A stretch of 64,000 nucleotides of DNA, from positions 1 through 64,000 of the forward strand of contig NZ_CACYJE010000004.1 in NCBI RefSeq assembly GCF_902774605.1. Reading direction: 5' to 3'. The stretch is from an uncultured Methanobrevibacter sp. (GTDB lineage: Archaea; Methanobacteriota; Methanobacteria; Methanobacteriales; Methanobacteriaceae). The translations under genes and the position numbers were made by a program. The notes below the pieces were generated by a model. That model saw nothing but the letters and a program-made list of their open reading frames with translations, had not been told where the DNA came from and searched no databases. Shown here in pieces: positions 12,584 to 46,107 of this stretch (position 1 is the stretch's first letter; every line of letters starts with the position of its first letter).

Positions 12584-14077
12584 ATGTTTGAAAAAGTATT
12601 AATTGCAAATAGAGGAGAAATCGCAATCAGGGTTATGCGAGCATGTCGTGAACTTGACATTAAAAGCGTGGCAATATACTCTGATGCAGATAAAACATCC
12701 CTTTACACAAATTATGCAGATGAAAGCTATCCGCTTGGAAACCCTTCACCATCAAAATCCTACTTAAACATCGAAAAAATCATCGATATAGCATTGGAAT
12801 CTGGTGCAGATGCAATACATCCAGGATACGGATTTTTAGCTGAAAATGCTAAATTTGGTGAAGAATGTGAAAAGCATGGAATTAAACTTATCGGACCGAC
12901 CGGCGATGTAATCAACAAGATGGGTGACAAGATCACATCAAAAGCCCTCATGAAAAAGGCAGGAGTGCCAGTCATCGAAGGAACACCTGAAGGAGTTACC
13001 GACATTGAAGAGGCAAAGGAAATTGCCCGCCAAATCGGATACCCTGTAATCGTTAAAGCATCAGCAGGTGGTGGAGGAATCGGTATGCGTGCGGTTTATG
13101 AGGAAGACGAACTCGTGCGTGCAATCGAATCCACACAATCCGTGGCATCCACTAACTTCGGCGACTCAACAGTGTTCATTGAAAAATACCTTGAAAAACC
13201 AAGGCACATTGAATTCCAACTGCTAGCAGACGAACACGGAAACGTCATACATGTTGCAGACAGGGAATGCTCAATCCAGAGAAGACACCAGAAGCTCCTT
13301 GAGGAAGCGCCTTCCCCAATCATGACCGAAGAGCTGAGGGAAGAAATGGGTGGAAGCGCAGTTAAGGCTGCAGAATACATCGGATATAAAAGTGCAGGAA
13401 CCGTGGAATTCCTATATGACAATGGAGAATACTACTTCCTTGAAATGAACACCCGTATCCAAGTGGAACACCCAATCACCGAACTGGTCACCAACACCGA
13501 CTTGATCAAGGAGCAAATCAAAATCGCAAACGGTGACGAGTTAAGCTACGAGCAGAAAGACATTCAAGTGACCGGTCATGCAATCGAATGCCGTATCAAT
13601 GCAGAAGACCCATTAAACGATTTCGCACCGAACCCTGGTAAAATCACAGGTTACAGGTCCCCAGGAGGACCTGGTGTGCGTTTGGACAGCGGAGTCTACA
13701 TGAACTATACAATTCCAACATTTTACGATTCAATGATTTCAAAACTGATCACCTATGGAAGAAACAGGAACGATGCAATCAACAGGATGAAAAGGGCATT
13801 GAGCGAATACATCATACTAGGTGTTAAAACCACAATCCCATTCCACAAGGCGGTTTTAAGAAACCCTAACTTCATTTCAGGGGACTTGAACACTCACTTC
13901 ATCGACACATACAAGAAAGGAATCGAGGAAGAGATGAACAATGTGATTGCGGAAGACCTGGAACTTGTAAACAAGATGAAATCCACATTCATGCCGGGTA
14001 AAAAAATCGCTGCAATCTCTGCTGCAGTGGGATCATACCAGAACATGGCTAAAAACCAGCAACTGCAAAAGAAATAA
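12584..14077 (+). CDS. pycA: Pyruvate carboxylase subunit A (biotin carboxylase)
   Basis: ATP-dependent biotin carboxylase subunit, ~497 residues, which charges the biotin carried by PycB so that pyruvate can become oxaloacetate. It has the N-terminal [19 protein letters not shown] block, the ATP-grasp loop [13 protein letters not shown] near residue 165 and the catalytic [14 protein letters not shown] near residue 285. I place the start at 12584, where GAGGT lies five bases upstream, rather than at 12572, which lacks a site. The biotin ligase gene follows directly. PycB is not in the window. Acetyl-CoA carboxylase subunit is less likely in a methanogen. Confidence 0.93.
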
Positions 14078-14095
14078 ATTTTTGGAGATTATCTA

Positions 14096-15013
14096 ATGAG
14101 AGATGAAATAATTAAATTGTTAAAAAAGAAAGATAAGCTTTCCGATGAAGCAATCAGCGAACTTCAAAACATCAATATCAATGATTTTTCAAAGATGGTG
14201 GAAGAAATTGGAAAACAACCTACAGAGCACATCAAGGCATCTGAAATCTCCAAGGATTTGGATACCGAATGGGTTGGTAAAAACATATACGTCTTCGACG
14301 AGGTAAGTTCCACCAACACCGTCGCCAGATTCCTGGCAATGAACGATGTTGCAAACGGAAGCATAGTGCTTTCCGAAAAGCAAACCGACGCAAGGGGAAG
14401 ATCAGGCAAGGCATGGGAATCCCCAATGGGAGGAATATGGTTGTCAATGATCCTGCAGCCTAATGTGGATTACTCAAAACTACCACTCATCACAATAGCG
14501 ACAGGGGTTGCCGTTGCAAAGGCAATAGAAAGAACCGGAATCACCACCGCCGAAATCAAGTGGCCTAACGACATCATGATTCATGGCAAAAAGGTCTGCG
14601 GAATCCTGACTGAAGCCGTGACCAAATTCAACACCATCGAGAATGTGATCATCGGTGTGGGAATAGATGCAAACATTGACATTTCAGATTTCCCTGAAGA
14701 ATTGCAGGATGGAACAACCACCATCGCAGATGAACTTGGAAGAAAAGAGGATGAGAACGTTCTAATCAGGTACTTCCTTGAAGAATTTGAAAAAATCGCT
14801 GACGAATTCACTCATGAAGGCTATGAGAACATTCTCAAAGAATGGAGAAAACGCTCATACAGTATCGGTAAAATCGTTGAAGTCAGAGAGCCATTCAACA
14901 AAAACTATGATGCTTATGTTGTAGGCATCGGCAAGGAAGGGGCATTGATTGTTGAAAAGATTGATGGAACCTTAAACAAAGTAATTTCCGGAGAATGTAT
15001 TATCAAAAAGTAA
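14096..15013 (+). CDS. birA: Biotin-protein ligase (BirA/Bpl)
   Basis: Attaches biotin to the biotin carrier protein via biotinyl-AMP, 305 residues. After a ~75-residue N-terminal region, probably a helix-turn-helix-like domain, the catalytic domain shows STNTVARFLA, the nucleotide loop GRSGKAWESPMGGIWLS and the KWPNDIMIHGKKVCGIL signature with catalytic Lys. The C-terminal SH3-like cap ends the protein. It lies 18 bases after pycA, so ligase and substrate pathway are co-transcribed. Its ribosome binding site, TTTTGGAGATT, is exactly complementary to a conserved stretch of the two small RNAs at 43.8-44.3 kb. Confidence 0.93.
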   Translation: MRDEIIKLLKKKDKLSDEAISELQNININDFSKMVEEIGKQPTEHIKASEISKDLDTEWVGKNIYVFDEVSSTNTVARFLAMNDVANGSIVLSEKQTDARGRSGKAWESPMGGIWLSMILQPNVDYSKLPLITIATGVAVAKAIERTGITTAEIKWPNDIMIHGKKVCGILTEAVTKFNTIENVIIGVGIDANIDISDFPEELQDGTTTIADELGRKEDENVLIRYFLEEFEKIADEFTHEGYENILKEWRKRSYSIGKIVEVREPFNKNYDAYVVGIGKEGALIVEKIDGTLNKVISGECIIKK

Positions 15014-41723: not shown

Positions 41724-42215
41724 TTAATCCAAAGGCAAATGTTTATTCCTTACCTTGTCTTTTAGAGTTTCCAAATCATTTGAAATGATGAATATCTTCT
41801 CACCGTCAACGAATGTCTTATAGCTCCAGCCGTCGCCGTATTGGGATATCATATAGTCGCCGTCGATATGATTATCGCCTGAGTCCTCCTGAGTTTCCAC
41901 ATTGGAATCATTGGAGCTGTTCTGTTCAATCAATACTCCATTGAGATTGTCGATGGATTTGGAAAATTCATTAAATACTGGATTATCCATCTTTCCTTGA
42001 ACATACCAGTTTATGACCACCCCGTAATCAATGCCTACATTTAGAGATGCCTTATAGAATGATCCGTGTTTGCGATATTCCTCCAGTATCATTGAGGAGT
42101 ACTTTTGAAAATATTCAAATGGATAGTTGTCATATCTAATCTGTTCGTGCAGTAATATTGATTTCAAGGAATTATTCCTTTGCTGTAAATTATTTAATAC
42201 ATCTATTCGGTTCAT
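41724..42215 (-). CDS. Hypothetical protein with HTH-like segment
   Basis: 163 residues, not recognised. The middle segment GSFYKASLNVGIDYGVVINWYVQG could form a helix-turn-helix of the resolvase or transposase type. A low-complexity Ser/Asn/Asp linker follows, then a C-terminal strand region with DGWSYKTFVDGEKIFIISND. It lies immediately upstream of the ElaA gene in the same direction. Confidence 0.55.
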   Translation of the reverse strand: MNRIDVLNNLQQRNNSLKSILLHEQIRYDNYPFEYFQKYSSMILEEYRKHGSFYKASLNVGIDYGVVINWYVQGKMDNPVFNEFSKSIDNLNGVLIEQNSSNDSNVETQEDSGDNHIDGDYMISQYGDGWSYKTFVDGEKIFIISNDLETLKDKVRNKHLPLD

Positions 42216-42325
42216 TAAGATTATTTTGGATTTTGAAGCATATAAATCTAGTAAGTTATTTAAGGATTGAAATGCAAATATAAGTATACAAGTAAACTAA
42301 TTTGTTTATTTTGAGGTGTATAAAA

Positions 42326-43261
42326 ATGAGCATAAAAAAAGTAGTTGTCGCCGGTGGAGGCGTACTTGGAAGCCAAATCGCTCTTCAAACCGCTTACTGT
42401 GGATTTGATGTAACAATCTGGCTTAGAAGTGAAGGATCAATTGAAAGAGCCAAACCTAAGCTTGAAAGATTCAAAAACATATATATTGAAACCCTAGAAG
42501 CAATGAAAACCGACCCAAGCGAGTATTGCAGAGGATTGGCAGCAAAAACCGACTTGAGCGAAGGCGAACTTGACGAGTTAAAGCAAAAGGCACAGGATGC
42601 ATACGACAGCCTGACATTGACAACCAGCTATGAGGAAGCAGCCAAGGATGCTGATTTGATCATCGAGGCCATTGCTGAAAATCCAGAACAGAAAATTGCC
42701 TTCTACACAGAGCTTGCAAAATACATGGAAGAGAAAACAATTCTGGTGACAAATTCCTCAACATTGCTGCCGTCAATGTTTGCAGAACACACCGGAAGAC
42801 CTGAAAAGTACCTTTCACTGCATTTTGCAAATACAATCTGGAAAAACAATACCGCCGAAGTGATGGGCCATCCTGGAACCGAACAGGAATACTATGATGA
42901 AGTGGTCAAGTTTGCCGAAGACATCAACATGATCCCGTTGCAGCTTAAAAAAGAGCAACCGGGCTACATCCTGAACTCCCTCTTGGTTCCGTTCCTAAGT
43001 GCCGCAGAAGCATTGCTTGCAAATGATGTTGCGGACCATGAAACCATCGATAAAACATGGATTTTAGCCACAGGAGCTCCTGCAGGACCATTCCATATCC
43101 TGGACATTGTGGGCTTAACCACAGCATACAACATCGTCATAATGAACCCTGAGGCACAGGACCCTGAAACCACTCCTGGAAAAATTGCTAAAATGCTTAA
43201 GGAAAAAATAGATGCCGGTGAAACAGGCATTAATGCTGGAAAAGGATTTTACGAATACTAA
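42326..43261 (+). CDS. 3-hydroxyacyl-CoA dehydrogenase family protein
   Basis: 311-residue NAD-dependent dehydrogenase. The N-terminal Rossmann motif is KVVVAGGGVLGSQIALQTA, the central block is ADLIIEAIAENPEQKIAFY, and NSSTLLPSMFAEHTGRPEKYLSLHFANTIW carries the catalytic His. The start at 42326 follows GAGGTG. The beta-oxidation pathway is absent in methanogens, so the physiological substrate is uncertain. A strong 11-bp hairpin spans its stop codon. Confidence 0.85.
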   Translation: MSIKKVVVAGGGVLGSQIALQTAYCGFDVTIWLRSEGSIERAKPKLERFKNIYIETLEAMKTDPSEYCRGLAAKTDLSEGELDELKQKAQDAYDSLTLTTSYEEAAKDADLIIEAIAENPEQKIAFYTELAKYMEEKTILVTNSSTLLPSMFAEHTGRPEKYLSLHFANTIWKNNTAEVMGHPGTEQEYYDEVVKFAEDINMIPLQLKKEQPGYILNSLLVPFLSAAEALLANDVADHETIDKTWILATGAPAGPFHILDIVGLTTAYNIVIMNPEAQDPETTPGKIAKMLKEKIDAGETGINAGKGFYEY

Positions 43262-43270
43262 AATCCTTTT
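43240..43270 (+). terminator. Terminator of the 3-hydroxyacyl-CoA dehydrogenase gene
   Basis: Perfect 11-bp arms AAAAGGATTTT and AAAATCCTTTT with a nine-base loop spanning the stop codon, followed by T runs on the plus strand (TTATTCTTTTTTT). The left arm is coding for the last residues. Confidence 0.7.
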
Positions 43271-43726
43271 TTATTCTTTTTTTAAATTCAATTCGATTGA
43301 TTTTAAGGTCAATTCATTGAATGTCTTCATGAAGTTCGCATCCAACTCATGCAAGCCCATTTTACTTTCCCATCCCTCATTGATTTCATAAAAGGTTGGA
43401 ATGAATTTTTCCGCCTTCGGAGTTAACCTTAAAACATTGTGGCGCTTGTCCCTATCCGATTTCTCGCGGAAAACCCATCCATCGTTTTCAAGTTTTTTAA
43501 TTGCCTTTGTGATCGCTCCCTTTGTCAAGTACAATCCATCAGACAAATCCTTTTGGTTTAGATTGCCGCTTTCATGTATCATTAAAATACATAATGCCTG
43601 GATTAGGCTTAAATCATATTTTGCAAGCTCATCGTTTAAGTATTTCTTATGATTCTTGTGAAAAATGAATAATATGTCCCCCAAACGGTTGGAATCATAG
43701 AAACCCATTGTCTTTTCAAATTTCAT
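43271..43726 (-). CDS. MarR family transcriptional regulator
   Basis: 151 residues with a winged helix: LNQKDLSDGLYLTKGAITKAIKKLENDGWV forms the recognition helix, and the wing REKSDRDKRHNVLRLTPKA is the MarR signature. It probably binds a palindrome as a dimer and senses a small ligand. The convergent dehydrogenase and the adjacent small RNA pair are candidate targets by position only. Confidence 0.88.
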   Translation of the reverse strand: MKFEKTMGFYDSNRLGDILFIFHKNHKKYLNDELAKYDLSLIQALCILMIHESGNLNQKDLSDGLYLTKGAITKAIKKLENDGWVFREKSDRDKRHNVLRLTPKAEKFIPTFYEINEGWESKMGLHELDANFMKTFNELTLKSIELNLKKE

Positions 43727-43786
43727 TATTCATATTTTGGTTTTACAGATATTTAATAGTTTTTTAGAAAAAATCAAATGAAAATA

Positions 43787-43794
43787 TTTATATA
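43787..43794 (+). promoter_or_regulatory. TATA box of small RNA copy 1
   Basis: TTTATATA on the plus strand, 32 bases before GATATGAA, the first stem arm of the RNA. The spacing (31 and 32 bases) is the same in both copies. Confidence 0.6.
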
Positions 43795-43813
43795 CCAAAT
43801 ATTACATATATAA

Positions 43814-43940
43814 AAAACGATATGAAATAAATTTCATTTCTTTCATTCATAATTTCAAGCATTTTATAATCTCCAAAATGTTTAAAAACATATTAAACTG
43901 GAAGTAAAAACACCATTACTTCCACAACCGCCATTTTTTA
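43814..43940 (+). ncRNA. Tandem small RNA, copy 1 (novel family candidate)
   Basis: A ~127-base non-coding unit repeated 330 bases downstream. Elements in order are a 5' hairpin (GATATGAA at 43819 with TTCATTTC, one mismatch), the conserved single-stranded block AATCTCCAAAATG (43868-43880) and a 3' hairpin GGAAGTAA/TTACTTCC (43900-43923), ending in a T run (43934-43939). It has its own TATA box and no ORF. Transcription start is inferred from TATA spacing. Confidence 0.6.
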
Positions 43941-44116
43941 AAGATATTCCCCCAAACCTCATGGTTTTTAACAGAATTTGTTTACTAATTTTTACTTTTT
44001 TTATGCGACTATAATCTAAAAAGTTATTTTCAATAATTAATTTCAAGCATTATGCAAACAAAGAATGAACATTATAATAATAAATGCCCCAAATAATAAA
44101 AATGAAAATAAAAAGA

Positions 44117-44124
44117 TTTATATA
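44117..44124 (+). promoter_or_regulatory. TATA box of small RNA copy 2
   Basis: TTTATATA at 31 bases before GATATGAA of copy 2. Together with copy 1 it shows that the promoter was duplicated with the RNA. Confidence 0.6.
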
Positions 44125-44142
44125 ACATTAAAATATAACTAA

Positions 44143-44271
44143 TAAACGATATGAAGTAATTTTCATATCTTACGATGAACATCAGTCAACCATTTAAAAT
44201 CTCCAAAATGATTAATACATGTTCAAAAGGAAGTAGTAATGACAACTACTTCCAAACTCCCCCTATTTTTA
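44143..44271 (+). ncRNA. Tandem small RNA, copy 2 (novel family candidate)
   Basis: Second unit with the same element order and spacing: 5' hairpin GATATGAA/TTCATATC (44148-44169, perfect 8 bp), block AATCTCCAAAATG (44198-44210) and 3' hairpin GGAAGTAG/CTACTTCC (44229-44253), then a C-rich spacer and T run (44266-44270). Compared with copy 1 the eighth pair of the 3' stem changes from A-T to G-C on both sides. Intervening bases differ freely. The unit ends four bases from the diphthine synthase stop. Confidence 0.6.
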
Positions 44272-44274
44272 AAA

Positions 44275-45066
44275 TCAGACATCATCAAGAATGCTAGAAT
44301 CTGCACCCGCAATCTCAACAAGATACTCCGCCTCGACAATATGCAACTTAGATGGAATCACAATGCAATGGAGAGGACCTCCAAAATCAAAATCAATCAG
44401 CTCGGAAATCTTGCCCGCCCGAACGACAACATCCTTTGAACCCACACGAGCAATACCCATAGCCAAGGTATCCTCACAAATCAATCCATCACGATCCAGG
44501 TCATCCTTAATATTCATAAGGTATTCCAAGCCTTGATTGACGGTCATGTAACGGTCCTTGTGAGCCTGAATGTCAAGCAACACCAAGGTATGCAAATCCA
44601 TCCTAAGATTCTCCTCAATGGCCTCATAAGGAGATTTCGGATAGAAATTATAATCAGGAAACGGTATGGTAGTCACCTTACCGAACTTATACCCCTGAAG
44701 CCCTGAAATGGCCGGAGCCGATGACAAAATGGAAGACCCGTGAATGACCTCGAAATCAATCCCCTTTTTAGAGCACTGAACCAGAAAATCACTGTGAGTG
44801 GTTGCAATCAAAGGATCGCCTCCAGTAATCAATGCAACATCGCCATCTCGAGCCTCATCAATGAACTTATGTTCCTCCTCCACTTCACCTCGCACCAGAA
44901 CTTCAATTTCCTGGCCAATCAATTCCTCAATGGCCTCAAAACTTGAACCAAATAATCTTGATGTGAAAAATTCGGCATAAATCTTATCCGCATTTCTTAA
45001 ACATTCCAATCCCTTAAGAGAAATATCCTTCTCGTCAAATAATCCTAAGCCAACTAAATAAAACAT
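44275..45066 (-). CDS. dphB: Diphthine synthase
   Basis: 263-residue SAM methyltransferase of the tetrapyrrole-methylase fold, making the diphthine intermediate on the histidine of elongation factor 2. Motifs are MFYLVGLGLFDEKDISLKGL at the start, DVALITGGDPLIATTHSD near residue 90 and GLQGYKFGKVTTIPFP near residue 125. The start is probably leaderless (TTATG). It is divergent from the Trm5 gene. Confidence 0.93.
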   Translation of the reverse strand: MFYLVGLGLFDEKDISLKGLECLRNADKIYAEFFTSRLFGSSFEAIEELIGQEIEVLVRGEVEEEHKFIDEARDGDVALITGGDPLIATTHSDFLVQCSKKGIDFEVIHGSSILSSAPAISGLQGYKFGKVTTIPFPDYNFYPKSPYEAIEENLRMDLHTLVLLDIQAHKDRYMTVNQGLEYLMNIKDDLDRDGLICEDTLAMGIARVGSKDVVVRAGKISELIDFDFGGPLHCIVIPSKLHIVEAEYLVEIAGADSSILDDV

Positions 45067-45102
45067 AATACTATTTATAATAATTTAAACATAAAAAACT
45101 TT

Positions 45103-46107
45103 ATGAAATGTGTAAAAGTTCCATTAAAAGAATTGAATGACACACGCATCAAGTTAATGGAAAAAGGATTAATGAATATGGAATATAGGATAAAGGCCAG
45201 TGACGATTATGGCTATATTCCAATCAATGATGACATTGACGATTATGAAATTGCAGACATTGACCTGGAGCCAATGAAGAAGGTTCCACACAATTTTTCA
45301 GAACTGCTCGAGGATGAACTAACAAGCACGGAGATTGAAAACCTCAGAACCTCATTCGACACCATCGGAGACATTGTCATTCTGGAAATCCCAGATGACC
45401 TGCAGGATAAAAAATTGCTGATAGGCGATGCTGCCCTCAAGTTCACAAAGAGAAAATCAATATACATGAAAAAAAGCGCAATCAAGGGAACAACCAGAGT
45501 CCGTGACCTGGAATTCCTAGCCGGAGAGGACGATTCGGTGACAATCCATAAGGAGCATGGCGCCAGATTGAAGCTGGATGTTCGTGAAGTCTACTTTTCC
45601 CCAAGACTTGCAACCGAACGCAAACGCGTGATGGAAAGCGTTAAAGAGGGTGAAAAAATCCTTGACATGTTTTGCGGCATTGGACCGTTCCCAATCGTCA
45701 TTGCAAGAAACAAAAATGTGGAGATTGCCGCTGTGGACATTAACGAGTCCGCCATCAGGTACCTGGATGAGAACATTCGGATGAACAAGTTGAAAGGTTC
45801 CATCAAAACCTACTGCGGAGATGTTCGTGAAGTCAGCAAATCATTTAACTCAAAATTCGACCGCATAATAATGAATCTTCCAGGACTTGCATACACTTTC
45901 CTTGATGTTGCTGTTGATTTAATTGAAGATGGTGGAACAATCAATTATTATGAGTTTTCCGATTCATATGAACAGGGAATAAAACGATTGGAAAATGCAT
46001 GCCATGAAGCCGGAAAGGAAGTTGAGATAATCAACACCCGCAAGGTGAAATCAACCAGCCCAGGAGAATGGCACGTGGCCATTGACGGAAAAATCAATAT
46101 CCCCTAA
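45103..46107 (+). CDS. trm5: tRNA (guanine37-N1)-methyltransferase Trm5
   Basis: 334 residues. The family makes m1G37 to prevent frameshifting. The catalytic Rossmann domain carries MFCGIGPFPIVIARN near residue 188, VDINESAIRYLDENI, and the NLPG motif in IIMNLPGLAYTF. The central D2 region with REVYFSPRLATERKRV is diagnostic of Trm5. The N-terminal ~100 residues are the D1-like region. It overlaps the convergent CARF gene by four bases. Confidence 0.92.
   Translation: MKCVKVPLKELNDTRIKLMEKGLMNMEYRIKASDDYGYIPINDDIDDYEIADIDLEPMKKVPHNFSELLEDELTSTEIENLRTSFDTIGDIVILEIPDDLQDKKLLIGDAALKFTKRKSIYMKKSAIKGTTRVRDLEFLAGEDDSVTIHKEHGARLKLDVREVYFSPRLATERKRVMESVKEGEKILDMFCGIGPFPIVIARNKNVEIAAVDINESAIRYLDENIRMNKLKGSIKTYCGDVREVSKSFNSKFDRIIMNLPGLAYTFLDVAVDLIEDGGTINYYEFSDSYEQGIKRLENACHEAGKEVEIINTRKVKSTSPGEWHVAIDGKINIP

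Follow-up and report, generated by a model that had tools for sequence, protein, structure and literature searches.

The window, a stretch of 64,000 nucleotides of DNA from an uncultured Methanobrevibacter sp., carries two tandem units that are very probably (probability roughly 0.8) the genes of a trans-acting antisense small RNA (sRNA) blocking the translation of fdhA. By computational analysis they form a structured RNA gene with a promoter, conserved among relatives and bearing a conserved antisense match to the start of fdhA. Judging from these sequence comparisons, the sRNA probably lowers or switches off the use of formate.

Layout, structure and distribution of the two units

Sequence inspection and a covariance model placed two units of ~118 nt in tandem on the + strand (43818-43932 and 44147-44262), flanked by a MarR-family regulator gene (43271-43726, -) and dph5 (44275-45066, -). 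Covariance model R1 was built from 20 sequences retrieved by a BLAST search of relatives, and model R2 from 87 matches. The features are as follows:

43271-43726, - strand: MarR-family regulator gene (Pfam PF01047)
43787-43794, + strand: TATA box of copy 1, TTTATATA (from the sequence; fixed spacing kept in homologues)
43818-43932, + strand: sRNA copy 1, model match (R1 91.4 bits, R2 85.8 bits, fold z -4.4)
43819-43840, + strand: 5' hairpin P1 of copy 1, GATATGAA..TTCATTTC (alignments A3/A4)
43851-43879, + strand: antisense segment of copy 1, AATTTCAAGCATTTTATAATCTCCAAAAT (complement of the fdhA start region with one mismatch)
43900-43923, + strand: 3' hairpin P3 of copy 1, GGAAGTAA..TTACTTCC (helix 5)
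44117-44124, + strand: TATA box of copy 2, TTTATATA (from the sequence; conserved spacing)
44147-44262, + strand: sRNA copy 2, model match (R1 104.2 bits, R2 98.2 bits, fold z -5.7)
44148-44169, + strand: 5' hairpin P1 of copy 2 (alignments A3/A4)
44186-44209, + strand: antisense segment of copy 2, TCAACCATTTAAAATCTCCAAAAT (complement of the fdhA start region apart from a small internal interruption)
44229-44253, + strand: 3' hairpin P3 of copy 2, GGAAGTAG..CTACTTCC (helix 5)
44275-45066, - strand: dph5/dphB, diphthine synthase (NCBIfam TIGR00522, 329.6 bits, cut-off 114.3)

Each copy opens with a 5' hairpin, continues through a middle arm that holds AATCTCCAAAATG and the GGAAGTAR hairpin, and closes with a C-containing stretch and then a T run. 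The C-containing tail and T run of copy 1 extend to ~43938, and the CCCCC tail and T run of copy 2 to ~44270, abutting the convergent 3' end of dph5; an A-rich, BRE-like stretch lies 5' of the TATA box of copy 1. All coordinates given for the units in the original prediction agreed with the sequence, as did the TTTATATA-to-GATATGAA spacing of 32 and 31 bases (GATATGAA at 43819 and 44148), the eighth pair of the 3' stem (A-T in copy 1, G-C in copy 2), and the conserved block common to both copies (AATCTCCAAAATG, exact at 43868-43880 and 44198-44210 and nowhere else in the window's genome). The 13-base word AATTTCAAGCATT of copy 1 does occur again at 44039-44051. Its reading as a third, decayed copy found no support, as an unfiltered model search of 42000-46000 gave no + strand match between the copies. 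Between the copies, TATAATCT (44010) and AATTTCAAGCATT (44039) recur, the two halves of the antisense segment of copy 1 with their order exchanged; these recurrences (44010-44051) stand without the remainder of the sRNA.

Copies 1 and 2 folded better than all 200 of their shuffles (z -4.4 and -5.7). Since no shuffle folds as well, BLAST matches occur genus-wide and the model scores reach 91 and 104 bits, the units are more than a chance pattern. In the alignment of the 87 matches, 24 of the 32 pairs showed two-sided changes (10.2 in shuffles, at most 15 in slid controls), 90.8% of the cells were paired and the covariation score was 0.168 (shuffles 0.100, slid controls at most 0.061), figures that are biased upward by an alignment fitted to the structure and by related sequences, with a margin over the slid controls that is still wide. 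Two-sided changes came from all five helices, including all eight pairs of helix 5 (the 3' hairpin P3), and 95-96% of the cells of helix 1 (P1) were paired in alignments A3/A4; a conserved RNA secondary structure, as expected of sRNAs that mask ribosome-binding sites, is thus present. The distance from the TATA box to the start is 30 in 70 of 85 copies. The stems and the spacing are thus both conserved in the homologues, and the prediction of a tandemly duplicated structured RNA with its own promoters, which homologues lacking them would have undermined, is supported. The sequence itself delimits a candidate transcription unit, with a TATA box at a conserved, fixed spacing and an end at a T run. 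The promoter stretch AATCAAATAAAAAnATTTATATA is conserved and no conservation was seen further upstream, hence the sRNA may be generally expressed.

Three other classes of RNA were considered and rejected. For an H/ACA guide RNA, the ACA after the 3' hairpin is found in the window in copy 1 only and is absent from copy 2 and many homologues; for a C/D box guide RNA, no Rfam C/D family reached its gathering score and the alignment has no conserved CUGA. A cis-regulatory leader or riboswitch does not suit the locus, where copy 2 runs up to the 3' end of the convergent dph5 gene and no plausible + strand gene lies directly downstream.

R1 matched 58 of the 139 genomes of the family. After dropping G022, whose only match is fdhA itself, and adding G021, the covariance searches called for by the original prediction placed the sRNA in 57 of the 67 genomes of the window's genus, Methanobrevibacter. 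Two tandem copies a few hundred bases apart are present in at least 26 genus genomes, and dph5 adjoins the sRNA at all homologous loci for which flanking sequence was read. Beyond the genus, R2 gave matches in a second genus, g15 (G069 at E 2e-6), with weaker ones in G057, G059, G062, G063, G064, G068, G072 and G073 that keep the TATA spacing, the 5' hairpin and the UUUAUAAUCUCC loop; it also matched G043 and G049 of two further genera, and a pattern search added G058 and G074. By sequence, homologues are therefore clear in the second genus and likely in two more. A search with strict filters found no sRNA match outside the family, and none was found in G087, G088, G089, G022 and several second-genus drafts, all of which have the fdhA site; pattern-search candidates in G088 and G089 proved to be the start of a gene upstream of mobA. 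A match in a g12 genome (G047:C27:2453-2555, L229) is identical to that of G073 (g15), and its contig may be contamination.

Second copies with different loops occur in G010, G004, G092 and G079. Both outer hairpins are retained next to an altered loop at L020:1287-1399 (-), L023:1292-1407 (-), L062:2221-2334 (+) and L063:2212-2326 (+), the loop being AATCACT in three of these four, which suggests either another target or decay.

Complementarity to the start of fdhA

The invariant core of the sRNA, UCAACCAUUUUAUAAUCUCCAAAAU, is perfectly complementary to a stretch of fdhA (AUUUUGGAGAUUAUAAAAUGGUUGA) that runs from the ribosome-binding site over the start codon to codons 2-3; the core's reverse complement CATTTTGGAGATTATAAAATGGTTGA comprises the Shine-Dalgarno sequence, a spacer, the ATG and two codons. 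This match supports the term 'regulatory' in the original prediction. The target was discovered because four model matches resembling paralogues were the antisense strand of the fdhA start; they belong to the seemingly diverged paralogues L084-L087 and L036:1795, which were set aside (none is in A4), the fifth having fallen below threshold.

The 20-mer GGAGATTATAAAATGGTTGA was exact at one further locus in many genus genomes (25 genomes searched). In the window's genome this locus lies on contig C3 and is where fdhA begins, directly downstream of fdhC; TIGR01591 identified FdhA (704 bits against a cut-off of 666), and FdhC was recognized as a formate/nitrite transporter. In a genome-wide pattern search of the same genome, fdhA alone, the sRNA apart, lay within one mismatch, and the next place has 2. 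Copy 1 pairs with fdhA across 33 positions with one mismatch, and the duplex (-39.1 kcal/mol) ranked 1 of 1397 start regions (runner-up -23.6), while that of copy 2 (-27.3 kcal/mol) ranked 2 of 1397. The background of -9.9 kcal/mol (sd 3.5, n = 1397) was computed with the 52-nt core over the 64 kb window and ~391 kb of further stretches, about one fifth of the genome, so the genome-wide uniqueness of the fdhA match rests on the pattern search and not on this background. The third-best duplex of copy 1 (-23.5 kcal/mol, window 14077-14130) falls on a + strand gene at 14096 that codes for 305 aa, looks biotin-ligase-like by eye and has TTTTTGGAGATTATCTAATG at its start. Within the copy 1 antisense segment, UAAUCUCC occupies the apical loop, and an exposed segment complementary to the ribosome-binding site of a gene elsewhere, another mark of sRNAs that mask such sites, was found: fdhA lies on another contig, and the two would form 20-26 contiguous pairs in many species. 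The fdhA start region by itself is weakly folded and should therefore be accessible to pairing.

Among 55 genus genomes the fdhA 20-mer GGAGATTATAAAATGGTTGA is exact in 46. In the fdhA 5' UTR of these genomes identity is 85-100% at -16..-1 and mostly 45-75% (A/T-rich) further upstream; codon 2 is GTT in nearly all of them, while codon 3 varies at its third base, one position past the core (A in 28, G in 26). When the best sRNA copy was compared with its own fdhA, 45 of the 52 genomes with both partners had at least 15 contiguous Watson-Crick pairs (maximum 26). The second-genus fdhA genes retain GGAGATTATAAAATGGTTGA. In G043 the fdhA start reads GGAGATTATATAATG / GGAGATTATATAATGG and the sRNA CATTATATAATCTCC, that is, one change per partner with the pairing kept; after swapping partners, contiguous pairing fell to 11 with the fdhA of other genera but stayed at 17 with that of the window, and duplex energy does not discriminate in this comparison. 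The G049 sRNA has 22 nt complementary to its own fdhA, having lost the bases that pair with the Shine-Dalgarno sequence and gained pairing deeper into the gene. No convincing sRNA was found where the fdhA start differs (GGAGAGTATTAAATGG or similar; g13, g14 and G042), nor in G048. An intact fdhA site and an intact sRNA core go together (Fisher test: p 0.003 for the genus alone, 1.5e-5 when the other genera are included), with counts made by hand and p-values made optimistic by the relatedness of the genomes. Individual genomes differ: G105 and G106 have an intact core and a different fdhA start region, in G077 the fdhA site is intact and the sRNA degenerate, core and site have both diverged in G008 and G013, G005 and G113 have neither, and the fdhA genes of G010 and G021 carry small changes incompletely matched by the sRNA. 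At core position 44, which faces fdhA base +4, complementarity is not maintained.

Predicted mechanism and competing readings

Each copy would be transcribed from its own TATA promoter, starting at or near the 5' hairpin, into an RNA of three hairpins that would end at the C-rich stretch and U-run. The middle hairpin would display the loop AUAAUCUCC, a putative mimic of the ribosomal anti-Shine-Dalgarno sequence, which would make the first contact at GGAGAUUAU, the ribosome-binding site of the mRNA of fdhA, a gene just 3' of the formate transporter gene fdhC and predicted to encode the alpha subunit of an F420-dependent formate dehydrogenase. Pairing would then extend over the AUG as far as codons 2-3, with 20-26 continuous pairs in many species; the ribosome start would be blocked and less FdhA synthesized. 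That the sRNA is expressed, that it actually pairs with fdhA and that it represses instead of activating are the steps that we infer.

The same complementarity would also fit a positive net effect of pairing with the fdhA leader, for instance by masking an RNase site and stabilizing the fdhCAB mRNA, and stabilization by pairing has an archaeal precedent proposed for sRNA154 with nifH (PMC5867862). We consider this unlikely: the Shine-Dalgarno sequence and the AUG are themselves covered, which should block initiation, and the weakly folded fdhA start offers no structure that needs opening. A possible, if doubtful, reading is that several mRNAs carrying GGAGAUUA sites are repressed through the loop UAAUCUCC, with fdhA as the best among them; it is compatible with a block of fdhA translation and would widen the target set. 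For example, TTGGAGATTA is retained in most genus genomes ahead of the start of a gene lying immediately 5' of mobA, mobA itself being the molybdopterin guanylyltransferase required for the Fdh cofactor, and G105/G106 keep the sRNA without an fdhA match. However, the invariant core runs through the AUG to codon 3 for fdhA only, the other start regions match over 10-15 nt only and drift, and in the window's genome fdhA stands alone. GGAGATTA is also found as a ribosome-binding site before the gene 5' of mobA, so the sRNA may have targets besides fdhA. A second target of the loop within the Fdh cofactor pathway could be this gene, whose 253-aa product has no Pfam/NCBIfam match (L292:8666-10076 (-), L357-L386).

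Two readings dispense with a functional RNA. High identity within the genus and the inverted repeats could point to a conserved DNA element, such as a protein-binding or recombination site, but this is highly improbable given compensatory changes in all helices and a conserved spacing from the TATA promoter, and it leaves unexplained an fdhA complementarity that ends exactly within codon 3. Hardly any weight can be given to a small protein gene: chance short ORFs are present in the region, but the ATG within GATATGAA (or GATGTGAA) runs into a stop after a few codons in most copies, and the loop and linker vary in length by single bases between species. Translational repression of fdhA by the sRNA remains our preferred reading.

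Significance and comparison with known sRNAs

No Rfam family (release 15) reached its gathering score in the whole window, nor did a lax threshold on 43740-44290 give one, the best chance matches there having 17.1 and 14.7 bits against cut-offs of 40, in line with the prediction of an apparently undescribed RNA. No report of this sRNA, and no link between an sRNA and methanogen fdhA, was found in the literature, of which subscription journals were mostly outside the coverage. Masking of ribosome-binding sites by archaeal sRNAs is established (sRNA154-glnA2, sRNA41-ACDS; PMC5867862), so that the kind is known, while the family and its fdhA target appear to be new.

Most methanogens of the rumen and gut are Methanobrevibacter, which carry fdh genes, yet rumen samples without Fdh transcripts have been reported, and whether these organisms use formate or only H2 is an open question (PMC10658910). 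By covering the fdhA start codon, a conserved antisense RNA would provide a specific control point for formate use and hence for methane formation. If true, this would be an archaeal sRNA whose target pairing is conserved across species, and partly across genera, and can be read from genomes alone. More speculatively, and on balance improbably, the duplicating family might be a dedicated post-transcriptional switch between formate and hydrogen in dominant gut methanogens, in which one copy holds fdhA, diverged second copies (AAUCACU-like loops; G010, G004, G092) have acquired other targets, and the same loop co-regulates the molybdopterin cluster that includes mobA.

The closest parallels come from Methanosarcina mazei. 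Like the sRNA described here, sRNA154 is intergenic, structured and trans-acting, with an anti-RBS loop that masks the ribosome-binding site of glnA2 (PMC5867862); it belongs to another archaeal order and is likened by mode of action, with no sequence relation claimed, whereas here the target is fdhA, the complementarity runs through the start codon and the genes are tandemly duplicated. sRNA41 masks the ribosome-binding sites of an energy-metabolism operon, ACDS, and represses its translation (PMC5867862); it acts on several sites in polycistronic mRNAs, while the Methanobrevibacter sRNA has a single dominant site, of 20-26 continuous pairs. sRNA162 is likewise a trans-acting methanogen sRNA and targets the mRNA of a regulator of the carbon-source switch (PMC3510493, PMC5867862), but it also acts on a cis-encoded mRNA, and its locus and target are unrelated to those described here.
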